Part shown: one piece after another, positions 8,630 to 23,106 of the stretch
Layout: each line of letters begins with the position of its first letter
Numbering within the stretch: position 1 is the first letter of the stretch
Origin: Nitrospirales bacterium
GTDB lineage: Bacteria > Nitrospirota > Nitrospiria > Nitrospirales > UBA8639
Assembly (NCBI GenBank): GCA_031315865.1
Contig: JALDRJ010000002.1
Location: 1,772,001-1,836,000 of the forward strand
DNA length: 64,000 bases
Direction of reading: 5' to 3'
Made by a program: the position numbers and the translations under genes
Notes under the pieces: model-generated
Told to the model about the DNA's origin: nothing
What the model saw: the letters and a program-made list of their open reading frames with translations, nothing else
Database searches by the model: none

Positions 8630-9292
8630 TTATTCCCGAATGGCCTCCGTCCAAGCAATTTTCGGACTGACGTTGACCGACTTTGGCTTCGTGCACTTTT
8701 TCCCACGGTCGCCATAACTGATATTCGACGTTTTAATCGGACAGGTCCCAAAGGCTGTTCCGAACTCTACCACCCCGCTTACCACGGTGAGTGTCGACTG
8801 TCCGTTCTCATCGACAAGGAGGTCAAACTCTGTACCTTTGACCGCAGCCGTCGCGACGGGCGTTTCTATTTCCAAGGGTTTGGGCTCACCTTGTGTGTCA
8901 ACCCAGACTTCCCCATGCTTCAGGCGCAGGACCCGCGTAAATCCTTTGGATTTTTCCCATCGTGACAGAATCAAAAACTCGGTATTCTCATTGAGGGCCA
9001 CCTCGATCCCATTATCGAATTCAATTAATCCTTGGCTGGCGGACTCTGTTCGAATGACGTCGCCTTCAAAAAGCGGTAGCGCACCTTTTCCTTCCAAGCC
9101 CTCCTCGATTCCGTCACTTCGAATGATGGTAAAACCGCCAATCGCATTTTTTGCGATGCCGACTGATTCTGGAGAGGCCAGGGCTACTGGTCCCTGGTAC
9201 AAAACAGACAAGGTGATTATCGTGAGGCATAAGAGTTTGAGGGTATCGCTTGCCCTCCAACGCGTGCAGTGCTGATTATTGTTCGTTTTCAT
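8630..9292 (-). CDS. Exported FecR-domain protein
   Basis: A 220-residue exported protein. The start at 9292 follows GAGGAGCAC and opens a signal peptide with hydrophobic core LLCLTIITLSVLY and likely cleavage after ALA. The FecR domain covers about residues 55-175 (GDVIRTESASQGLIEFDNGI, then GEVWVD, then TPVATAAVKGTEFDLLVDEN). In classical FecR this domain receives a signal from a TonB receptor and controls a sigma factor, but here it is on the outer side with no cytoplasmic part and no sigma gene nearby. It is the last gene of a minus-strand run after the YVTN lipoprotein (46-base gap). Exported FecR proteins like this usually have unknown roles. Confidence 0.88.
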   Translation of the reverse strand: MKTNNNQHCTRWRASDTLKLLCLTIITLSVLYQGPVALASPESVGIAKNAIGGFTIIRSDGIEEGLEGKGALPLFEGDVIRTESASQGLIEFDNGIEVALNENTEFLILSRWEKSKGFTRVLRLKHGEVWVDTQGEPKPLEIETPVATAAVKGTEFDLLVDENGQSTLTVVSGVVEFGTAFGTCPIKTSNISYGDRGKKCTKPKSVNVSPKIAWTEAIRE

Positions 9293-9337
9293 GTGCTCCT
9301 CCTGTATCACGGTCATTTCATCAAGGTTCAAAGCTCG

Positions 9338-10333
9338 TTATCTGGACGCCACGACACGTATGGGTTTTTGGCCAACCGGGATGGTCGATAAGACTTTGTT
9401 GGTGCCAGTATCGATGATCTTCAGATCGTTGGATTTGGTATGCCCCACATAAAGCCGCGTTCCGACAGAATTTGCCCAGATACCGTTGGGACCTTGCCCG
9501 ACATCAATCTGTTCTTTGATTTGCGGTGTGGAGGTATTGGCGCTCAACACGACGACTTTATCGAGTCCGGCTACCGTGACGTAGGCATTTGGACCGGCCG
9601 TGCCTTTAAAGGCAAAGGCGATCTGTTGAGGGGCCGCGCCGACCTCGATCTCATTGGAGATTTCGTTCGTTTGTGGATCGATCGTGTAGATGGAATTGCT
9701 CCCGGTATTGGTTCCCCAGATCTGGCCATCTGGCCCAAGGACCAGAAAGTGGGGATTGGGCCCGACGGGAATACGTTTAATGATCTGATGCGCCATCGTG
9801 TCGATCACATTCACATGCTTGTCTTGTGTGCTGACATAGGCCAACTTGCCGTTACGGGAGAATGTGATACCCATGGGTCCCCCCGGAATCGGGATGGTGC
9901 CGAGGATGCGAAAAATTCCCGTATCGATGATGGAGATCGTGTTGTCGGCGATATTGGCGACCCAGGCCTGCTTGTTGTTATTTGTGAGGGTAACGACATG
10001 AGCGCGATCCCCCGTGAAAATGGACGCAATCGTCTCCATCTTCTCCGTGTCGATGACAGAGACGCGTCCTGAGGCCAAATTGGTCGCCCACAACTGCTTT
10101 CCGTCACGGGTCAGGGAGAGGTCATGCGTGGCATGGTTCAGAGTATCGATCTCGCCCAATGGCTTAAAGGTCGTGCCATCGACGACGCTGACGGAATTTG
10201 AACTTTCATTAGCCACATACACTTTCGTGTCAGGACCTTCCGGTTTAGTGGGAAGCTTGGCGATGCAGCCAGCGAGCAGGCTGGCCGCCAGCATACCTCC
10301 AAGGACTGAGAACAGCGTAGACGCCACCTTCAT
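9338..10333 (-). CDS. YVTN/YncE beta-propeller lipoprotein
   Basis: A 331-residue lipoprotein: SLLAGC places the lipidated Cys at residue 23. The mature part consists of about seven 40-residue YVTN repeats (KVYVANESSNSVSVVDG, QAWVANIADNTISIIDTG, LAYVSTQDKHVNVIDT and others), which fold into a beta-propeller. Such propellers are binding scaffolds; no catalytic residues are visible. It lies between the exported caspase gene (91-base gap) and the FecR gene (45-base gap), all in the same direction, so the three may work together outside the inner membrane. YncE-like proteins have been linked to DNA or metal binding, but nothing here decides that. Confidence 0.9.
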   Translation of the reverse strand: MKVASTLFSVLGGMLAASLLAGCIAKLPTKPEGPDTKVYVANESSNSVSVVDGTTFKPLGEIDTLNHATHDLSLTRDGKQLWATNLASGRVSVIDTEKMETIASIFTGDRAHVVTLTNNNKQAWVANIADNTISIIDTGIFRILGTIPIPGGPMGITFSRNGKLAYVSTQDKHVNVIDTMAHQIIKRIPVGPNPHFLVLGPDGQIWGTNTGSNSIYTIDPQTNEISNEIEVGAAPQQIAFAFKGTAGPNAYVTVAGLDKVVVLSANTSTPQIKEQIDVGQGPNGIWANSVGTRLYVGHTKSNDLKIIDTGTNKVLSTIPVGQKPIRVVASR

Positions 10334-10424: not shown

Positions 10425-13400
10425 TTATTGAACGCGCCCCATGATCAGTTGGCCTTCGACCTCTCCCTTCTTCACTGGGTGTTGATTCTGACCGGTCACG
10501 GAGGGCACTTGTGTGGAGACGTAGGAATAGGCCTCATCGACTGTGATGATGCCATCGGCGTCAAAGTCGGCTTTTCCTTTAAGTCCTTCCAACAGATAAT
10601 ACGTAAAAACGCCATGTCTCAAATCGTCCCGTTCTTCACTAACTTCACTGGCTCGACTGGCCGTCAAGACCACTCGTCCCTTGCCTTCGGCTAACCGAGA
10701 CAGGAAATTGTCCGAGACCACGGCTCGACGCGCTGCGGTGGAAAATGTCCGTCCCGCTGTGGCGCCACTATAGCAGGAATCTGTGATGAAAATGACCCGT
10801 TCTGCGGCAATACGGTCAAAAATGGTCTCGACCTCCCTCATCGGCAGGCCAGTGGTATAGAGGTCTTGCGGGTCAGCGTCATAGGGGATGAGGTATTTTT
10901 CAAGACCATCTCCGTCGGGACTTGCCGAGTCCGTTTCTGGGGCGCCATGCCCGGCGTAGTAAATGATGACGGTATCCTTGGGCCCGGCCTTGCGCTTCAG
11001 CTCGGTTCCCAAGGTTCTCTTAAGATTCACCAGCGTGGCCTGCTCGTTTATGAGCGACGTCAGGTGTTCTGCTGGAATGCCAACATCGTTCATGAGATAC
11101 TCATGAAAGGCTAAGGCATCGTTATCCGCGTACTTGAGGGGGCGGACCTTGTCGTACCTGGAAATTCCGATGACGACAGCCCAGATTTTGCCTTTATCCA
11201 GGATGCGGGTGACGTTGAGGGTTCGGGTAGCTGAGATTTGTTCACCATCAAACGCGGTGATGCTGATCGTATTGGTCCCCTCCCGCAACTGAACAGACTC
11301 CGAAAACTCGTAGGTGGTATTCGTCGCAGTCCGACCCGGCACGACGGCGATTCCACGGCCTTGACGCCTGGCTTGAAGTTCCTGGTTCACTCGTACTTCG
11401 ATGCGTGAAATGCCTTTTTCGCTGGCGGCAGCCCCGATTAATTGAATGCGATCAACTTTCACTTCTTGATTCTCGAATGGAGAAGCCAAGGCGATGGCTG
11501 GTGGCGTTTTGGGTGATGGGACCGTCGTGACTTGAGTCAATTGTTCTTTGAGCTCCTGTAATTCTGTTTGATACTGTCTGAGGGCTCTTTCTGCTTGTTC
11601 TCGCTGCGCATGTTCGGCGTGAAGCTTTTCCTCCATCGTGGAACGTTCATGGTTTTGCGAGGAGTGCAGAGATTCCAATTGAGCACGCAACTGCTTCATC
11701 TCATGTTCTCTGGCCTGTAACGTGGCGGTGGTCTGTTCACGCTCCGCGCGTTCCCGTTCGAGCTCTTCTTGTGTCGATGAGAGCTTTGCGTTCTCCGTGT
11801 TCGCAAGATGCTGGAGCTTTGCCTGCAAGTCGTGCATTTCTTGCTCGCGTCGTTGCAAAGCCTGCTCGATCTCCTCTCGTTGAATTTGCGCTTCTTGCAG
11901 TTGCTCATTCAACGTGATGAATTGAGCCGTTCGCGCGGCCTCTAAGCCTTGAATGATCGGAATCGGCATGCTGCCCTTGGCCATGGATACGGTGACCGAG
12001 GCTTGATTCTTGGAGATCCAGCCGGACTCCGCTTCGGAGAGTTGTACGCGATACCAGTCACCCAACTCTCCTGTTGCAGCCAGGGTTTGATCGTGTTGAA
12101 CTGCGGCGATGACGGAGGAGTCCGCTCCCGCGCCGCTCAGGATCGAAGCCTGTTTCGCAGTGACCGTGATGAGCTTGTTGGTCGCCACGATCTGAAGTGG
12201 CGGCTGTGTATCGACGGCCAGATTCAAGGTGTCGTTCAGGAAAACCTGTTCTGATTTTTCTTGAATGAAGAGCTTGAATTGGAGTTCTGCGCCCGAAAAA
12301 TCTGGCCACACGGTAAAGCTGACTCTGGCGCGTTTGGACGTTTCCCCTTCGAGAGCGCCAAACCGGATCACGCGAGGCCGAATTTTCAGGTGTTGATCAG
12401 CCCCATTATTGATTTCGACCCAGGTGTTCTTCGCGGGGACGGTGCTGACGTTTCGTAGGGTCAACAGAAGATCGACCGCTTCACCTTTTTGAATCCTCCC
12501 ATCTCCATTTCCCACAGACTGGCCACTGCCATCATCGAGAATTTGATAGTTATAGGCTAATCGCGGTTTGGTCGAACCCGTCAGATGAATCACTGCCTGC
12601 AGTGGTGGAGGGGTGAATCCGTTATATTCCTCGAACACAATCTGCATCGGCGCCGTGTCCTGGTCGTGATCTGCTGGAATTTGGACATGCACGACCTCGG
12701 ACTGCTGCTGTCCGGCTTCGATTTTTCCAAAATACAAGACTTGACCGTCGAATATTGGGTTTTCGCTCTGCGTGGTCCCCTTCATGCGATAGACTGGACC
12801 TTTTCCGGTATTCTTGATCGTCACCTGAAGTTCGACCGGATGCCCGGGCTGGGCTTCATGAGGGCGAATCACGAGTTCGGCTTGTGGGCGGGGAGGGGGA
12901 AATGGGGGAGGGCCCACTTCGTTGTCTTTCACCTCGATGGTGTTCTTGGCCTCTGGCGTTCCGCGTTGGACAATGCGCATTGAAGGATGAAATGGCTGAA
13001 GCTGGACGATGCGATCGCGGCCTCCGGAGGCAAGTGATTGACCGTCAGGAGAAAACGCTACTGCCCACACTGGTCCACGATGATTCGTGAATGATCGCAA
13101 TTCCTGACCATTCTTCCAATCCCATACACGGATGCTTCCGTCTTTTGCGGCGGATACGAGAGTAAGCCCATCTGGAGAAAAGGCGAGAGATTGCAGGGCG
13201 TCCGTATGTCCAGTCAAGATTCCTCGTTCGTGGCCAGTCGAGAGGTCCCACAGGCGGATGGTTTGATCGGCTCCCCCGCTGGCGAGAATTTGGCCATTGG
13301 GAGAAATGGAGACGGCTAGAACCGCTCCCCGGTGCCCGGAGAAGGTCTTTTGCTGGCGGCCGCTCGACGGATCCCACAGATGCACCATGGCATCGCTATT

Positions 13401-13955
13401 GCCAGTGGCCAGCAGGTGACCATCCGGGGAAAATGCCATGGAGAATATGATCCCAAACCCACTTTTCATGACTTTTTGCGGATTTTTTGTCTGCCAGTCC
13501 CAAAGATAAATATTTCCTCCATCTCCTCCTGTGGCGAGTGTTTTCCCATCGGGGGAAAACGTTAACGACCGAACACTCCCGAAGCGCGTGCTTATATTCA
13601 CCAGTTCTTTGCCCGTTCCGATCTCCCATAGTCGCCAGGTGCGGTCACGGGCACCGGAAGCTAGGAGCCGGCTATCAGGAGAAAAAGCCAACGCCCGAAC
13701 GGCACCGGTATGACCTTGTAAGATCTTACGTAGACGGCCCGTGCGGGGATCCCAGAGGCGAATCATTTCATCGCCGCTCCCAGAGGCGAGATAGTGTCCG
13801 TTTGAAGAAGTGGCTAATGAGAAAATTTCACCTTGATGGCCCATCAGCGACCGTGTTGGGGGATCGATTTCTGGAGAAGGGGATGCCTGAAGAGAGCACG
13901 GGTTGGCAAGAAGCCAAAGTACAAGACAGATAGTAAATCTTAAATAAAAATACAT
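10425..13955 (-). CDS. Exported WD40-coiled coil-caspase (peptidase C14) protein
   Basis: A 1176-residue multidomain protein with an N-terminal signal peptide (ICLVLWLLANPCSLQAS). In order: seven WD40 repeats (about residues 38-330, with motifs such as LASGSGDEMIRLWDPRTG); two CARDB-like beta domains (about 355-590); an SH3b-like unit (about 595-655, GDWYRVQLSEAESGWI); a long coiled coil (about 680-820); an Ig-like domain (about 830-920); and a C14 caspase domain (about 935-1170). The catalytic dyad is intact: His in IIYYAGHGAP near 998 and Cys in FITDSCYSGA near 1060. An EF-hand-like loop (DFDADGIITVDE) lies near 1133. Caspase-like enzymes cut after Arg/Lys or Asp; most bacterial ones with WD40 repeats lack signal peptides, so export is unusual. 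Confidence 0.92.
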   Translation of the reverse strand: MYFYLRFTICLVLWLLANPCSLQASPSPEIDPPTRSLMGHQGEIFSLATSSNGHYLASGSGDEMIRLWDPRTGRLRKILQGHTGAVRALAFSPDSRLLASGARDRTWRLWEIGTGKELVNISTRFGSVRSLTFSPDGKTLATGGDGGNIYLWDWQTKNPQKVMKSGFGIIFSMAFSPDGHLLATGNSDAMVHLWDPSSGRQQKTFSGHRGAVLAVSISPNGQILASGGADQTIRLWDLSTGHERGILTGHTDALQSLAFSPDGLTLVSAAKDGSIRVWDWKNGQELRSFTNHRGPVWAVAFSPDGQSLASGGRDRIVQLQPFHPSMRIVQRGTPEAKNTIEVKDNEVGPPPFPPPRPQAELVIRPHEAQPGHPVELQVTIKNTGKGPVYRMKGTTQSENPIFDGQVLYFGKIEAGQQQSEVVHVQIPADHDQDTAPMQIVFEEYNGFTPPPLQAVIHLTGSTKPRLAYNYQILDDGSGQSVGNGDGRIQKGEAVDLLLTLRNVSTVPAKNTWVEINNGADQHLKIRPRVIRFGALEGETSKRARVSFTVWPDFSGAELQFKLFIQEKSEQVFLNDTLNLAVDTQPPLQIVATNKLITVTAKQASILSGAGADSSVIAAVQHDQTLAATGELGDWYRVQLSEAESGWISKNQASVTVSMAKGSMPIPIIQGLEAARTAQFITLNEQLQEAQIQREEIEQALQRREQEMHDLQAKLQHLANTENAKLSSTQEELERERAEREQTTATLQAREHEMKQLRAQLESLHSSQNHERSTMEEKLHAEHAQREQAERALRQYQTELQELKEQLTQVTTVPSPKTPPAIALASPFENQEVKVDRIQLIGAAASEKGISRIEVRVNQELQARRQGRGIAVVPGRTATNTTYEFSESVQLREGTNTISITAFDGEQISATRTLNVTRILDKGKIWAVVIGISRYDKVRPLKYADNDALAFHEYLMNDVGIPAEHLTSLINEQATLVNLKRTLGTELKRKAGPKDTVIIYYAGHGAPETDSASPDGDGLEKYLIPYDADPQDLYTTGLPMREVETIFDRIAAERVIFITDSCYSGATAGRTFSTAARRAVVSDNFLSRLAEGKGRVVLTASRASEVSEERDDLRHGVFTYYLLEGLKGKADFDADGIITVDEAYSYVSTQVPSVTGQNQHPVKKGEVEGQLIMGRVQ

Positions 13956-15747: not shown

Positions 15748-16527
15748 CTACCAGACGTTTCCCGCTCCAGGAGTATAGGACGAGGAGATAACGCTGTTCG
15801 TGACGACCGAGTCTGACTGCACGACTCCGGTAAATTTTGACATTCCTGAATTGACCTTCACCATCCCGCCCGAGACTTCCACCATGCTGGCATTGAGCGT
15901 GATTTTAGCCGAACTGTTGAGCGTAATACCGGTTTGGCCAACTTGCATGGCCGATTCAAGCTTTGAGAGGCGGCTTTGGAGCGCATGCGCAATCTTCTGG
16001 AGGTCTTGTACCTGTTTCTCTAACTGTTGGATGGTGTTTTCGGGTGAATGAGCCTGTGGGTTCTTCTTTGTTTGGCGACGCAACACCGTTTTGGGTTTTG
16101 TCGGAGGTGTGACCTGCTTCGCTTGTTTCACCGCTCGGGATCGAATTTCACTCGTGGAGCCTTCTGCTTCCAAGCCATGGCCATCAGGCAGCAGTACTTG
16201 AATGATGATGGCATGACCTTTCTCCGGGAGAAGATTGACGATCGGCCTACTCACGTGCTCGTCATGATGAGTCGGCGTAGCCTTTAGTAAGAAAGTCTGT
16301 TTGCGTTCACCGGGTATCAAGCGAAGCCAAGGATCCGCAGCTTCCACGTGATATGTTCCTGGTTTAATGACAATATCGCTACCATTCGCCAGAGTGAAAT
16401 GCGCGGGACTTTCAAGCGTGAGAAGGAGAGTCGAGGCGTTCATCTCACTTGCTTTGAGAGGATCAACGATAAGGAACAAGAGGAGGAGCGCCAGCGTTGT
16501 TGTAGAACGGTGTGGATCGATGAACAT
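15748..16527 (-). CDS. Paralog family protein A: shared domain plus spike-like tail
   Basis: A 259-residue exported protein; the start at 16527 has GGAG 5 bases upstream. After the signal peptide (TLALLLLFLIVDPLKA), residues 30-130 are the domain shared with four genes upstream: a hydrophobic strand pair, PGTYHVEAADPWLRLIP, and the closing signature LLPDGHGLEAEGSTSEIRSR. A basic linker and a coiled coil (IQQLEKQVQDLQKIAHALQS) follow. The C-terminal 60 residues (GITLNSSAKITLNASMVEVS, ending YTPGAGNVW) look like the beta-prism tail of VgrG/gp5-type spike proteins. It is the last gene of the run, 47 bases after protein B. No known function; the trimer-forming tail suggests an elongated extracytoplasmic assembly. 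Confidence 0.8.
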   Translation of the reverse strand: MFIDPHRSTTTLALLLLFLIVDPLKASEMNASTLLLTLESPAHFTLANGSDIVIKPGTYHVEAADPWLRLIPGERKQTFLLKATPTHHDEHVSRPIVNLLPEKGHAIIIQVLLPDGHGLEAEGSTSEIRSRAVKQAKQVTPPTKPKTVLRRQTKKNPQAHSPENTIQQLEKQVQDLQKIAHALQSRLSKLESAMQVGQTGITLNSSAKITLNASMVEVSGGMVKVNSGMSKFTGVVQSDSVVTNSVISSSYTPGAGNVW

Positions 16528-16574: not shown

Positions 16575-17561
16575 CTAACGGTTCCATTCGTCGCACACAA
16601 AGCTCACACTATCGATGTATGTTCCGTATTTCCCGCGCAACGCTTTTCCGACTTTATTGCCCGGGCAAAAAAAGTCATCGCTTCTCGTCCCCCCGAAAGG
16701 AGTCCCAGGCGCACCGGCGAACGCGCATTCTGTATTGCAACTCTTGACGTCTTTAGGAGATTTGAAATTTCTGGGTCGTTTCTTGGCGGCGTCCCATCTC
16801 GGACAGAACATGGTGATCCCATTCACAAACATTCCCGATCGTGCGTGAAACCCACCGACAACTCGACCGTCCCCACATCTATCGATGCGTCCCGTGCCGC
16901 CGGATCCTCCAACCGGTTTTCGTGTATAGTCTTCTCCCAGCGAACCATCGTGATTGACCTCTTGGCAAATGAGTCCAAGCGCGTCAATCCATGAGCCACT
17001 TTTCGTCGTGACTCCCACCATCACGCCATTCGGGCCACAATCAAGGTTGTACCTTTTCTTTCCGCCACCTCCCCCGAGCAGCGGCGTTTCGAACTCAGTA
17101 GAGCGGGTGCTTTGCCGGGAAGCCAGAAGAGCCTGCAATTGTTGACGGCTCAGTTTTGATCCGGCTCGTGATCGAATGCCGCTATAGGAGCCAGTCGCCT
17201 CAAAGCTTTTTCCGTCCGGTAGTAGCAGGACAAGATGGTGGGAGTCAGGCTCGATACCCGTAACCGACAACGCCAATGGAGTCTTTAATGACTCTTGATG
17301 TCTGCCCACATGGGCTTCAAGCAGGTACGCATCCATGGCTAGACCATGGCTGGGAATAATCCGGATCCAGTCTTGGGCAGGCTCCACGACATACTCTCCG
17401 GCACCGATCCTGAGATCGCTGCCGTCTGGCGTCAGGAAGTGAATCGGGACTTCAAGTTCGATCGTGTTGAGGGCGTTGGTCGACTCGGCGTGGGATTTTA
17501 GCGCGATTCCCAGGATGATCAACGATAAAACAATTCCGATAATCCATTTCAAATTTTTCAT
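16575..17561 (-). CDS. Paralog family protein B: shared domain plus triple Cys repeat
   Basis: A 328-residue exported protein. I use the start at 17561 (MKNLKWIIGIVLSLIILGIA), which opens directly into a signal peptide after GGGG; an ATG at 17591 adds ten polar residues. The shared domain (about residues 28-140) ends in LLLPDGKSFEATGSYSGIRS. The C-terminal half has three related units near residues 172, 225 and 298, each a Gly-rich strand with Cys then aromatic-Ile/Val-Asp or Asn (CGPNGVMVGVTTKSGSWIDA, RCGDGRVVGGFHARSG, FFCPGNKVGKALRGKYGTYI). The pattern recalls jacalin-like lectin strands, but the even Cys count suggests disulfides. Export and Gly-rich repeats point to ligand binding; the ligand is unknown. 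Confidence 0.78.
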   Translation of the reverse strand: MKNLKWIIGIVLSLIILGIALKSHAESTNALNTIELEVPIHFLTPDGSDLRIGAGEYVVEPAQDWIRIIPSHGLAMDAYLLEAHVGRHQESLKTPLALSVTGIEPDSHHLVLLLPDGKSFEATGSYSGIRSRAGSKLSRQQLQALLASRQSTRSTEFETPLLGGGGGKKRYNLDCGPNGVMVGVTTKSGSWIDALGLICQEVNHDGSLGEDYTRKPVGGSGGTGRIDRCGDGRVVGGFHARSGMFVNGITMFCPRWDAAKKRPRNFKSPKDVKSCNTECAFAGAPGTPFGGTRSDDFFCPGNKVGKALRGKYGTYIDSVSFVCDEWNR

Positions 17562-17598
17562 AGTATGTACCCCATCCGTTTTGTTGATCACGTATCAG

Positions 17599-19641
17599 TT
17601 ATCGGGCTGCGGCTTCGGCTAATAACAAGACACTCCGGTTATATCGTTCCAGGGCTTTCCTCGTGTCTTCTGTGTGCGTACTCGCGAGAATGATGATTTG
17701 CTGCTTCGATGGCAAGTATCGAAGGATCGCTGTCAATGGGCCGGCATGTTGTTGAATGGTTGCGTAGGGGCGTCCGCTTTTGAGCGCTTTTTTCCCTTCG
17801 TCGATGACCTTCCCATAGGCATACAGCAGTCCGCCCTTTACGCTGCCAACGATAATATTGTTGATCGTCAATTTCCAGATGACATCGGGAGTGACTTTGG
17901 CCACACCCGAGATGATGCCTCCCACCTCGGGGACGAGGCCGGCTGCACTTTGAACGACCGTGCCGACGGTCTGTTCGCCAAAGTCCAGAACCTCCACTGC
18001 GGATCGGATCAAAAAACTCCCACCACCCGGTAATTCACTGTTCAGATAGTTTTTTCCTACCACGCGTAGTATTTCCATCCCAATGTCGATGTACAGCGTT
18101 TCCGTCCATGGACTATTTGGGTCAAGAGCGGTTCTTACTCCACTCAAGGCTTGCGCTCGTTGTGCGGTATTGTCCAGCGATCTCGAGAGTCGTTCGACGT
18201 GAGAGGCTGCGGCGTGCAAGGTCTGTGGGTTCAAGAGCTGATCGGCCAGCACGGCATTTTTAATGTCGATGATATCTCCTAGTCCTGGAATGACTTCGCC
18301 AAGTAAGGCTTTAGCATCGTCACCGCCAAATCCTCGAGAGACAATCTGCCCTGGCGAATCAGGGCTATCGCTTGGTCCATATTCTTGAGCAATGCCTCGT
18401 GAGCGTACCGTTGTTTGGGCGATGTCACGGGGTGTCAGCGATGTCGCAGCCGACAAGATTTTGCCGATTTGCTTGCTGATGCCGCCATACAGGACAGGGG
18501 CCACTTGGTTGTCAAAGATTCGTTTGGCCTGTGTCTTGGCTGTCTGCTGTACCTGTCCGGACATCTTGTTCACTGTCTTGAGATGAGGGCTTGCAAACTG
18601 CATCAGACATCGTCCAGCTGGTCCCTTTTGCGCTAATTTTTCCAACGAGCGAAATGCCATGCTGACGACTTGCTCTCCTTGTGGTGCGGAACGGGAGGGA
18701 TTCTTGATGAACTGGAGTTGTTCGCCCATGATTTCACTAAAGTTCTGTTCCCATTGCTGCATGAGGTCTTGAAAAAGCTTGTTGGCAAATCCGGCAGGAT
18801 TGTTCACGAGCTGTTGAGCCATCTGCCCGACATTGCCGGTCGCTGACCCTGAGGCCTGCGCGAGGCATCCAAATAGCGGTTCGAGTTTTAACTGTCTGAC
18901 CGCTTGCAACGTTTGAATTTCACTCTGTAGCTTGGCGAGCATGGGGTTGTCTTGGAGTTGATTGACGCCGTCCTGCACTCCACTTCTGACCGCGCCAGCC
19001 ACCTGTCGACCGGCTTGCTCAACCTGCCGCTTGGCCTGCAGGGCGGCGTTCCTGGTGTTTTCTACACTTTTTTTCGCTTGGGACACAGCCTTCTGTGTTT
19101 GCTGCTTGATTTGTTTCGTCGTTTTTTGTGCGGTGCTCTTTCCCTTCGAGACCGCTGTTTCCGCCGTAGATCTGGCCTTTTGGTATGCGCGGTTCGCCTG
19201 TTTCTTGACATTGTTAACGGCATGATCAAACATGCCCCTCTGTCGAATGCCACTATAGGTTCCGGTGGCTTCCAGGCTCTTTCCATCAGGAAGCAGGAGG
19301 AGAATATGATGACGGTCGTGTTGTCCATCTTCGGTGTCGGGAACAGACAAAGCTAACGCCTCAGAAAGCTCGAGCTCATGGGTGCCTTTCTTCGCCTCGA
19401 TAAGGAGTGCATTCTGTGGCTCGTCCGGGATGAGTCGAATCCATTCTTGTGCCGCTTCGACGGAAAAGGTTGCAGAGTCCGTGACCAGCGGGCTTCCATC
19501 CGGCGCGATAAAGTACACGGGCTTGTCCAGCTCAATCGTGATTAGAGGATTCGAGAGAGTGGCATGGGCTTGGACGGTAGGTCCAAACCACACACACAAT
19601 GTAAGTGTGGCCACAATGGTTAGCCGGGAGAGTTTCATCAT
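17599..19641 (-). CDS. Paralog family protein C: shared domain plus long helical region
   Basis: A 680-residue exported protein starting after GGAGG at 19641 (MMKLSRLTIVATLTLCVWF). The shared domain covers about residues 28-145 and ends LLLPDGKSLEATGTYSGIRQ. Next comes a Lys/Ala/Gln-rich helical stretch (about 150-225, TAQKTTKQIKQQTQKAVSQA) like a coiled stalk, then a long helical body with glycine-rich hydrophobic segments (LLGEVIPGLGDIIDI, SAAGLVPEVGGIISGVAKV). Such segments occur in membrane-active proteins, but no toxin family is recognised. Only two Cys lie in the mature part. It begins a tight three-gene set, C-B-A, with gaps of 37 and 47 bases. Confidence 0.75.
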   Translation of the reverse strand: MMKLSRLTIVATLTLCVWFGPTVQAHATLSNPLITIELDKPVYFIAPDGSPLVTDSATFSVEAAQEWIRLIPDEPQNALLIEAKKGTHELELSEALALSVPDTEDGQHDRHHILLLLPDGKSLEATGTYSGIRQRGMFDHAVNNVKKQANRAYQKARSTAETAVSKGKSTAQKTTKQIKQQTQKAVSQAKKSVENTRNAALQAKRQVEQAGRQVAGAVRSGVQDGVNQLQDNPMLAKLQSEIQTLQAVRQLKLEPLFGCLAQASGSATGNVGQMAQQLVNNPAGFANKLFQDLMQQWEQNFSEIMGEQLQFIKNPSRSAPQGEQVVSMAFRSLEKLAQKGPAGRCLMQFASPHLKTVNKMSGQVQQTAKTQAKRIFDNQVAPVLYGGISKQIGKILSAATSLTPRDIAQTTVRSRGIAQEYGPSDSPDSPGQIVSRGFGGDDAKALLGEVIPGLGDIIDIKNAVLADQLLNPQTLHAAASHVERLSRSLDNTAQRAQALSGVRTALDPNSPWTETLYIDIGMEILRVVGKNYLNSELPGGGSFLIRSAVEVLDFGEQTVGTVVQSAAGLVPEVGGIISGVAKVTPDVIWKLTINNIIVGSVKGGLLYAYGKVIDEGKKALKSGRPYATIQQHAGPLTAILRYLPSKQQIIILASTHTEDTRKALERYNRSVLLLAEAAAR

Positions 19642-19806: not shown

Positions 19807-21264
19807 TCACGGGTAAAATTTTTTTCTGTCTGTTTCTTCGTTCTTGCGAAAAAAACGAGAGCTTTGCGGGCAAGGGGCATCGGCTTCGACCCAGGGGTCG
19901 ATTTTGCTGTACCACAGCAAAGGTTTGTTGGGAAATGGAACCGTCAACTTCTTCCCTGTAGGCGTGGTTCCGTCACTGACGGCCCAAAGTATTCTCGGAT
20001 CTTGATGAAAGTGATCGTATAACCGTTTTGGGTCAGGTGGGGTTTCAATTTCATTGTCTTTATTCGTAAAAGGGCCAGTGACTTTTTCACAGATGAGATG
20101 TGCGCTCCAGCCTTTCCAATTCAATCCTTGAGTGGCGAGTGGTGAAACCCACCGGTTTTTTATCTCCGGCGAATTATGACAATCCATGCAGAATGTGGGG
20201 TTCTGTGGTCTGGCTTCTTCTTCAAATTGGTACGGGAATTGTTCGACGCCCAGGCGGTATTGGTGCATTTCCACGATGGAATCGTGGTCGATGAGCGCGT
20301 GGCAAGTGGTGCAGCGATCATGAGAAAAAATGGGATACAGGACCGAATCGAAATAACTCATGGATCGGGCGTAAATTTTCGTATCCGAGGATTCCCACGA
20401 TTTGTTCCCTTTCGTGACCACCACTTTGACAGTTTTAGGCCAGGTTTGCGCACGCAGATCATTGAGCTCCACGCGTGTGAGGAGGGTTCCTCGTTTTCCG
20501 AATTTCAACCGGGAAATCGGTATCTTTTCCCCATTGAGCGTCAACGTGATGCAACATTGCTTTTTCTTGACGAGATTTTGAAAGTCTTCGTTGTGCCGGG
20601 GGATAAACGACGGATGTAGGGCACCCTTCTCCCAATATCCTCCCCAGGTCAATGTCAGGATTCCGGAGTTAAGTGTATCGCTCACTGGGAGTTGCCACGT
20701 GGTATGGTGCTTATCCCCCTGATAGGTTTTATGAGAATCGGGATATTCGAGGGAAATGCTCGACAAGGTTAGATGCGGAACGCTGGCTTGAGCTTTTTGC
20801 TTCTCGTCGATGTGAAAGAGCAGTCGTTCGTTCGGGAGAGGTGGATGATCAGCTGTTCGAGTATGAACGCCGGTCAGCCCTCCCCGTGCTTCCCAACGCC
20901 GACCATTCGGCAGGAGTAAGGTCAGGACAAATTCGTCTTTGCTCTCAGAAAATACCAGTGCGAGCGGCGTTTTCGTCAGACTATCCTGCTCAGTGATGTT
21001 CGCTTCTATCAGGATTGATTCGTCCCCCAATCCTTCTTGAGCGATTAACCGAAGGCCAAATTTTTCACCATTCAGTCCATAGGCCCCGGGCAAAACCGTG
21101 ACCTTTTCTCCAGCGGGCATGAAAAAGTGCAGCGTTTGATCGATTTCTACGGTGGCAGGCTTGTGGTCCGTCGATTCTGTTTTTGATGGAGTGGAGCATC
21201 CGGATATTATAAAAATTATGGTGAGTGAACCCATCAAGAATGCGAGCCACCGGAACGGAATCAT
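19807..21264 (-). CDS. Paralog family protein D: lipoprotein with two c-type heme motifs
   Basis: A 485-residue lipoprotein; GAGGAGGG precedes the ATG and IISGC gives lipidated Cys23. The shared domain (about residues 35-150) is the most diverged copy, but keeps LLLPNGRRWEARGGLTGVHT. The middle is beta-rich. Two CxxCH heme-attachment motifs follow: DRCTTCHALIDHD near residue 318 and FCMDCHNSPEIKNRW near 356, so the mature protein should carry two covalent hemes outside the inner membrane. Electron transfer or redox sensing is implied, with no catalytic family recognised. Gaps of about 160 bases on both sides mean it may have its own promoter. Confidence 0.82.
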   Translation of the reverse strand: MIPFRWLAFLMGSLTIIFIISGCSTPSKTESTDHKPATVEIDQTLHFFMPAGEKVTVLPGAYGLNGEKFGLRLIAQEGLGDESILIEANITEQDSLTKTPLALVFSESKDEFVLTLLLPNGRRWEARGGLTGVHTRTADHPPLPNERLLFHIDEKQKAQASVPHLTLSSISLEYPDSHKTYQGDKHHTTWQLPVSDTLNSGILTLTWGGYWEKGALHPSFIPRHNEDFQNLVKKKQCCITLTLNGEKIPISRLKFGKRGTLLTRVELNDLRAQTWPKTVKVVVTKGNKSWESSDTKIYARSMSYFDSVLYPIFSHDRCTTCHALIDHDSIVEMHQYRLGVEQFPYQFEEEARPQNPTFCMDCHNSPEIKNRWVSPLATQGLNWKGWSAHLICEKVTGPFTNKDNEIETPPDPKRLYDHFHQDPRILWAVSDGTTPTGKKLTVPFPNKPLLWYSKIDPWVEADAPCPQSSRFFRKNEETDRKKFYP

Positions 21265-21420: not shown

Positions 21421-21591
21421 CTATTCTTGTCCGGTAAACATCATGGGTTGTGTCGTGACATCGACGGGAGGAAATCCCGGCCCGCCCGTAAACTGCATAG
21501 ACTGTGTCGTTTGATCAACCGATTGAAACGCCGCGGCTAGCCCCACACTTATCGCGAGCAGGAATAGAATCATTGGAAGACTTTTAATCAT
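21421..21591 (-). CDS. 56-residue secreted repeat peptide
   Basis: A small exported protein (MIKSLPMILFLLAISVGLAA) whose mature part is only about 33 residues. It holds two copies of one motif, VDQTTQSMQFTG and VDVTTQPMMFTG, separated by GPGFPP. Its ATG shares an A with the TGA of the gene upstream (TGATG), so translation is coupled to protein E. The ORF can be read from 21735, but that part lies inside protein E. No family is recognised. The doubled motif suggests a structural or binding peptide working with the neighbouring exported proteins. Confidence 0.65.
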   Translation of the reverse strand: MIKSLPMILFLLAISVGLAAAFQSVDQTTQSMQFTGGPGFPPVDVTTQPMMFTGQE

Positions 21592-22475
21592 CAGTTCACG
21601 CTCCCCTGTGCATGGATGCGAAATGGCGTTCCGTCGGCGGAGACCAGCCACGCTGGTTTTTGGTTCCCCAGCGGTGTGCCATGCTTTCCTGGCTGTCGGA
21701 ATCCGATCCCGGGTTTGTGCAGTAAAATACCGCAATAATATTGATCGGCATCCTCAGGCTCTTTGCCTTGACTCGCGTTAAACATGACGACGACGGTTCC
21801 TTGATATTGCCGATTGGCGATATTGGCGACCGATTCCCCTTCCCCAATTCTTCGGTCGTATTTTGTCGCATCGTTGCCACTATGCGTCCAACATTGCAGC
21901 TTCAATTTATCGATGTCTGGGTCCAAGTGACTGAGTTGTATGGGGACTCGCAGGGTAAAGTGGGCCTTGATGGTCACGCGCGCTCGGCTCGTTAAGCGTG
22001 CGCGGTCAAATTGTTGTTTGACCGTGGCGCGCGACGCTCCTGTTCGTTTCTTGGTCACGTGCGTGGCTCTTGATCGGATGCCGCTGTATGACCCTGTGGC
22101 TTCAAGGGCTTTGCCATCAGGGAGCAATAACATGAGCACGTGGAGATCGTCTTGTTCTGAGAATGAAAGAGGCGTCGGGACGGTGACCGTCTCTTCGTGA
22201 GTCGTGGGATGGGCTGTAATGATCAGCGGGTGATCCGTCGTCTCTCCCGTGAGTTGAAGGTACCCGTGCTCTGAACTCACTTCGTACGTACCCGGCGGGA
22301 CTGGTATGTCTTCACCCGTTTGACTCACGAAATAGGTTGTGCGATCCAAGGTGATTGCTGTCGGGAGTGGATTTGTTTCTTCGTTTAGAGAACGGGACGT
22401 GCAACTCGTTAAGATTCCTGTCCATCCAAGGATTCCGGCGAGTCCGAATGCAAGCATGGTATGAGATGTCGGCAT
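21591..22475 (-). CDS. Paralog family protein E: lipoprotein with shared domain
   Basis: A 294-residue lipoprotein (GILTSC, Cys25), with an AGGAG site upstream. The shared domain occupies about residues 37-140 and ends LLLPDGKALEATGSYSGIRS, the clearest form of the signature. A basic linker follows (KKRTGASRATVKQQFDRARL), then a beta-rich C-terminal domain (HFTLRVPIQLSHLDPDIDKL, VVVMFNASQG, DQYYCGILL) with two Cys that may pair. That last domain is not recognised. It starts 16 bases after the spike-like gene's stop, and its stop overlaps the start of the 56-residue peptide, so the three genes form one unit. Confidence 0.78.
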   Translation of the reverse strand: MPTSHTMLAFGLAGILGWTGILTSCTSRSLNEETNPLPTAITLDRTTYFVSQTGEDIPVPPGTYEVSSEHGYLQLTGETTDHPLIITAHPTTHEETVTVPTPLSFSEQDDLHVLMLLLPDGKALEATGSYSGIRSRATHVTKKRTGASRATVKQQFDRARLTSRARVTIKAHFTLRVPIQLSHLDPDIDKLKLQCWTHSGNDATKYDRRIGEGESVANIANRQYQGTVVVMFNASQGKEPEDADQYYCGILLHKPGIGFRQPGKHGTPLGNQKPAWLVSADGTPFRIHAQGSVN

Positions 22476-22491: not shown

Positions 22492-23106
22492 TCATTTCAC
22501 CCTGGGGACAGGGTTGTGTAAACGTGGCGATGTGTTCGTGACTTTGCTGCCTTTGATCATGACGTCGTTCGATCCTTTGATGTCGATGTTTTTTCCTGAA
22601 ATCGTGATGTCGCCATTCTTCTTCATGATGAACGAGGCTTTTCCGGTTTTGATGACGATTTCATCGCCGGCTGTCAGCAGAATTTTTTTGCCGGCAGAGA
22701 CAGTATGATTGAGCCCTGTGTTTTGAAGAGCATTTCCTTTGACTTGCTGAGAGGAGTTTTTCCCTACCGTCAAAGATTGCTCTCCGCCGATCGTGCGGTT
22801 TTGGTCCTGACCGACTGTCTCTGTTTGTGTCCGGCCGACTTGAGAGTGTCGATGGCCTCCGACTTGTACCCGCTCATCTGTTCCGATCGATTCCTGTTTC
22901 TGTTGTTGGACTGTCACGGTCAAGGCGCCTTTCGAAATCTTGAGCATGGATTGTAGCGCCGCGAGCTGTTGCTGCAGCATTCGCACCTGATCTTGGAGGG
23001 ATGAGAGTTGTTTCGTGGTATGCGGGTCTTCGGCTGTCACCGAGGCAGGGAATATGGATCCCCACATCAGGAAAAGGATTGCTATGGATATGGTGATTCG
23101 CGTCAT
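22492..23106 (-). CDS. Exported VgrG/gp5-like beta-helix protein
   Basis: A 204-residue protein with a Sec-type signal peptide (ISIAILFLMWGSIFPASVTA), a coiled coil (QLSSLQDQVRMLQQQLAALQ), then an octad repeat region (VGGHRHSQVGRTQTETVGQD, TIGGEQSLTVGKNSSQQVKG). It ends with strands typical of VgrG tails (ILLTAGDEIVIKTGKASFIM, GDITISGKNIDIKG). This matches the C-terminal triple-stranded beta-helix of T4 gp5 and VgrG, without the hub or lysozyme domains. Real VgrG proteins have no signal peptide, so this one probably trimerises outside the inner membrane. It heads the paralog locus. Confidence 0.82.
   Translation of the reverse strand: MTRITISIAILFLMWGSIFPASVTAEDPHTTKQLSSLQDQVRMLQQQLAALQSMLKISKGALTVTVQQQKQESIGTDERVQVGGHRHSQVGRTQTETVGQDQNRTIGGEQSLTVGKNSSQQVKGNALQNTGLNHTVSAGKKILLTAGDEIVIKTGKASFIMKKNGDITISGKNIDIKGSNDVMIKGSKVTNTSPRLHNPVPRVK

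Follow-up and report, generated by a model that had tools for sequence, protein, structure and literature searches.

The window, a stretch of 64,000 nucleotides from a Nitrospirales bacterium, contains an intact ORF on the minus strand (22492..23106), present in a single copy in the genome, which encodes a predicted exported VgrG-tail protein of 204 aa. As a ribosome binding site, a GGAG motif precedes the ATG by 6 nt, so that the long start is likely and an internal start, the possible objection raised by the first-pass annotation, is disfavoured. A scan for promoters and terminators remained at chance level. Judged from its sequence, the protein is composed of three modules: a signal, a coiled coil and a VgrG tail.

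Residues 1-25 (23032..23106, minus strand) have the n, h and c regions of a Sec-type signal peptide, with a single Arg, a core of nine residues averaging 2.98 in hydropathy and a V-T-A|E site, as scored by a simple home-made script and not by SignalP; an ortholog in genome G011 (another genus of the same family) carries a similar one. Residues 28-58 (22933..23025, minus strand) gave a heptad score of 4, compared with a mean of -0.88 in shuffled sequences (p=0.009). Both the signal peptide and the coiled coil that the first-pass annotation had recognized were therefore borne out as sequence features, and we propose the latter as a trimerisation seed. A single-chain AlphaFold model placed a helix at residues 28-69 and a strand ladder at residues 140-185, with a pLDDT of 50 that makes it not usable. 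Among the matches of profile A3 are VgrG/eCIS spikes and structurally determined trimeric coiled coils.

The third module is a VgrG/gp5-like octad tail (residues 59-192, 22531..22932, minus strand). Its octads had been written as VGxxRxxx. Repeats of eight residues are indeed far above chance, with nine Gly-Gly pairs at spacing 8 (shuffle mean 2.0, maximum 7 in 5000 shuffles) and 11 V/I pairs (3.9 in shuffles, p=0.0002), but the general form is VGxxxxxx and 'VGxxR' is not invariant. The assignment of VgrG-tail strands held as well: the Pfam model Gp5_trimer_C matched at 42.2 bits (cut-off 30.9), and phmmer against the PDB retrieved a central spike (8kea, E 4.9e-6) and VgrG1 (4mtk/4uhv, E about 1e-4), the latter aligning its residues 491-627 with residues 59-191. 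Because this alignment begins at residue 59, the VgrG tail starts at the end of the coiled coil; conventional VgrGs of the same order align from about residue 60. The homology to solved trimeric VgrG spikes would fit a putative trimer. Beyond the tail there are 12 residues and no extra receptor domain at the C-terminus, and neither an outer-membrane anchor nor a beta-barrel was seen in the protein.

Neighbouring genes and the SD domain

The gene SD1 (21591..22475), which encodes a shared-domain (SD) protein, starts 16 bp after the stop of the tail gene on the same strand and is probably co-transcribed with it. Four further SD-domain proteins are encoded downstream on that strand, in agreement with the earlier view that the tail gene heads a cluster of paralogs. 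The first (19807..21264) has two CxxCH motifs and is a possible haem protein; it gave weak matches to multihaem cytochrome models and is duplicated in the genus-mate G001. The second, SDcc (17599..19641), combines an SD domain with a long coiled coil; its C-terminal region is conserved among other exported-tail loci, and the G011 locus encodes a protein 61% identical to SDcc. No membrane-spanning stretch was found in SDcc beyond its signal peptide. A PHROG match pointing to a tape-measure protein was discarded, as it probably reflects coiled-coil similarity. The third (16575..17591) contains a GGGGG..YNLDCG region, and the fourth (15748..16527), which has an ortholog in G001, joins the SD domain to a coiled coil and a short beta-repeat tail ending in SSSYTPGAGNVW. 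This is the second exported tail of the genome, and a profile search of the genome found none besides these two. Further along the same strand lie an exported WD40-caspase protein (10425..13955), which is a conserved SD/tail neighbour in G001, G011 and G191, a beta-propeller lipoprotein-like protein (9338..10333) and a FecR-domain protein (8630..9331), the last two likewise retained at this position in relatives.

The SD domain is about 95 aa long, follows a signal peptide, has the C-terminal end LLLPDGxxLEATGSxSGIRxR and is joined to varied C-terminal regions, which have CxxCH motifs, an extended coiled coil, or a coiled coil with a beta-repeat tail. It is predicted with confidence as a small beta fold (core pLDDT about 90), and no convincing relative was found among solved structures (the best hits had E 6e-3 in Foldseek and, for a WDR91 blade, Z 4.8 in VIA). 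SD domains were found in 19 of the 396 genomes of the phylum sample, all within two families. The window's genome holds at least 11 SD matches, and a second group of SD-domain genes is located at G000:C2:1872204-1904651 (L105, L106), 80-110 kb from the cluster described here.

Contractile genes and exported tail proteins in relatives

T6SS, eCIS and phage tails are assembled within the cytoplasm, rely on a contractile sheath and have gp25 in common. Inspection of the window had revealed no sheath, tube or baseplate genes, and tblastn with related tube and VgrG proteins agrees. The genome-wide search for T6SS and eCIS genes recommended at that stage detected no VgrG, Hcp, gp19, gp25 or TssC in the window's genome, nor any Tat-gp19 or Sec-VgrG, so that the core genes are undetected; the only CIS gene recovered is an orphan sheath-like one, about 1.45 Mb from the tail gene. 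The C-terminal domain of its product matches Phage_sheath_1C (39.6 bits, cut-off 26.9), and no tube, gp25 or VgrG gene accompanies it. This orphan (G000:C2 about 318500-319700; L108 9555-10703) is placed between housekeeping genes.

It had also been suggested to look for the tail gene beside the shared-domain family in other genomes. In G011, the ortholog has its own signal peptide (MRSFITTALTMMFLTSSLALA|AD), and an SD gene lies 0.3 kb away. Further genes of that locus encode a protein with a Tat signal (TRREFL) that matches Phage_T4_gp19, another exported coiled-coil/beta tail and a 541-aa VgrG with a Sec signal, which has the Phage_GPD and OB domains and almost no tail. Tat-gp19 loci are found in eight genomes of two families; in the second family, G059, G195, G356, G393, G412, G134 and G197 encode one to three Tat-gp19 proteins each. 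Exported tails accompany Tat-gp19 in all of them except G197, where a 63-aa frame is the only match. Moreover, Sec-VgrG is also present in G059, G195, G356 and G412, and signal-peptide Hcp proteins in G356, G195 and G412. In six of the eight genomes (G011, G356, G393, G412, G134 and G197), gp25, phage sheath and TssC were not detected with models that recovered their targets in known control genomes; these are draft genomes, which can hide genes, and most are 90-99% complete. G059 and G195 do have gp25 and sheath genes, on contigs other than that of the exported locus.

The Tat leaders are real additions, since they end exactly where the signal-less homolog in G005 begins. This homolog (L084 7287-8180) is a tandem-gp19-like protein encoded among housekeeping genes, an unexported form of the Tat-gp19 family. 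Past the leader, the exported gp19 proteins are about 300 aa long with gp19 matches in both halves; in sequence they look like tandem-domain forms, and such forms would be better suited to a ring of three than to a long tube. In the tree, the five exported VgrGs group together (support 90/92, one change), and a single origin is therefore likely, though not proven.

Seven of the eight Tat-gp19 genomes carry SD genes, always on the same contig and within about 0.6 to 13 kb. Shared ancestry weakens this association as statistics, whereas the physical linkage is direct. In G001, the same neighbourhood, with FecR, beta-propeller, WD40-caspase, SD and M28 peptidase genes, has a different exported tail gene in the slot of the 204-aa gene, suggesting that the locus retains an exported tail as one of its components. 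As far as sequence comparison can tell, the window gene, which encodes an isolated tail that carries a signal peptide and a coiled coil and lies beside SD-domain genes, falls within an exported-tail protein family that is specific to the lineage and comprises Tat-gp19, Sec-VgrG, Sec-Hcp and Sec-tails. When the genome collection was scanned with the single 204-aa protein, a test of low sensitivity, two conventional VgrGs were the only matches elsewhere. The PAAR-like end of the spike2 tails (KPLATVGS...GQIVTGSPTILGN) gave no PAAR match in Pfam. The exported-tail locus of G059 also encodes an exported papain-family protease and a neighbour (L077 8405-9613 and 11904-12770), the neighbour matching type III needle proteins below the cut-off (E 7.8e-4).

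The tails of the window protein and of its G011 ortholog form a clade (100/98) that matches conventional VgrG tails better than exported-VgrG tails, the deep branches being weak. TssC is present in two genus-mates and was not found in the window's genome. Plausibly, the tail of a T6SS VgrG became detached, acquired a signal peptide as well as a coiled coil, and was incorporated into the SD locus.

Comparison with known systems and proposed role

The octad tail resembles those of VgrG/TssI and the C-terminal beta-helix of T4 gp5 (PF22178, PF10106) and is about 40% identical to the tails of conventional VgrGs from its own order. However, Pfam matched the 204-aa protein with tail models alone: in place of the gp27-like Phage_GPD hub and the OB domain of VgrG, it has a signal peptide and a coiled coil. 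In contrast to a T6SS, the window's genome has no detected TssC sheath, gp25-like TssE, Hcp or full-length VgrG, and no cluster uniting sheath, tube and gp25, as in eCIS and tailocins, was found there. The protein thus lacks tested defining features of VgrG, T6SS and eCIS and was assigned to none of them. The exported-tail loci have the gp19-type tube fold and VgrG-like spike proteins in common with eCIS and tailocins, but differ in lacking sheath, gp25 and baseplate genes and in Sec/Tat export instead of cytoplasmic assembly. T6SS orphan islands, in which Hcp and VgrG are encoded away from the main cluster and which are considered to supply a T6SS located elsewhere (PMC13098142), likewise have hub, Hcp and spike genes without a full apparatus; in the exported-tail loci, however, the proteins bear Sec or Tat leaders, and TssC, sheath and gp25 went undetected in the majority of the genomes. 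A coiled coil leading into a beta-helix and an expected homotrimer are also traits of phage tail fibres and spikes, whereas the window protein is bacterial, predicted to be secreted and without a receptor-binding tip. A phage origin was rejected: the 204-aa protein, a spike2 tail and the gp19-like protein had no tblastn match in 50,697 phage records. The individual folds are already known. No description of the joint Sec/Tat export of VgrG, gp19 and Hcp sets without contractile parts was found in the open-licence papers searched.

We favour, as a probable though far from settled reading, a Sec-exported VgrG-tail rod that acts as a trimeric stalk or tip organising the SD-domain proteins of the same operon, and not as an injected needle. 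Exported by Sec, the protein would trimerise from the short coiled coil, which would stand in for the hub, and its octads would form a rod, a triple beta-helix, beyond the inner membrane, either in the periplasm or at the cell surface. The rod could then serve exported partners as stalk or tip, the SD proteins being the best candidates on account of gene neighbourhood. We infer in this way the trimer, its final location, the binding of SD proteins and the function of the rod. The first-pass annotation had pictured a trimeric needle assembled outside the inner membrane. The compartment is probably right, assembly there being plausible because the loci of relatives encode exported hub, tube and Hcp proteins; the needle itself has no detectable tube or hub to cap. 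Because both are missing from the window's genome, a stalk or tip is the most likely role, and a firing needle is unlikely there.

The exported tube and hub neighbours of relatives in other genera, encoded with no contractile engine at these loci, suggest that tail parts are reused outside the inner membrane. It is quite possible, although we would not go as far as calling it probable, that hub (VgrG), tandem gp19, Hcp and spikes are each exported singly, by Sec and Tat as we propose, and build a sheathless passive tube, stalk or SD scaffold in the periplasm or outside, of which the window's genome would keep a reduced, tail-only form. A step further, the same proteins could assemble in either place as a tail-like particle, a working sheathless needle or tube, the tube and hub of the window's genome having become unrecognizable by divergence or given way to SD proteins. 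G356, G195 and G412 encode exported, co-located proteins of all four types (hub, tube-fold, Hcp and spike), and G011 and G059 those of the hub, tube-fold and spike types; a phage tail tube protein, as described in PMC6466441, can self-assemble into long tubes in the absence of other tail parts. We nevertheless regard such a needle as unlikely: VgrG, Hcp and gp19 are undetected in the window's genome, no energy source or trigger is known, and the apparent tandem-domain gp19 forms would lend themselves to a trimeric ring more readily than to an extended tube.

A surface fibre or adhesin, in which an exported trimeric rod displays a binding surface and has nothing to do with tail assembly, is in our judgement more doubtful still. 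Coiled coil plus beta-helix is a common design of fibres, and the hub is missing from the window's genome; however, the protein shows neither anchor nor barrel for the outer membrane, its few residues past the tail hold no receptor domain, and hub and tube homologs are present in the loci of relatives. That the N-terminal hydrophobic stretch is no signal peptide, and the protein a cytoplasmic spike of an ordinary T6SS or eCIS, is very improbable. The closest relatives of the tail are conventional VgrG tails, but the signal peptide is conserved in G011, no T6SS/eCIS core was detected in the window's genome, and tails, hubs, Hcps and gp19s of these loci all have Sec or Tat leaders. Finally, a decaying remnant of a lost T6SS, as the distribution of TssC among genus-mates might suggest, is hardly credible given the intact ORF, ribosome binding site, signal peptide and octads, the ortholog retained in another genus and the different exported tail in the G001 slot.

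Exported hub, tube and spike proteins in genomes without a detectable sheath would show that a tail's components can be reassembled in a different compartment to serve a new purpose, and orphan VgrG, Hcp or gp19 genes do not necessarily imply an injection system. Such proteins would also offer a natural, testable collection of exported components that assemble by themselves.

A short motif, [VIL]xxR[GA][VILMF] (as VQERG, VTERAV or SGIRSRA), recurs near the mature N-terminus or just past the SD domain. It is present in 64 of the 241 exported proteins of these loci (L038, L039, L077-L083, L105, L107 and L109-L113, with the window proteins 15748-16527 and 17599-19641), compared with 15.4 in shuffles (maximum 27). 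It might mark a site of proteolysis or sorting, and the neighbouring exported WD40-caspase would be one candidate protease.
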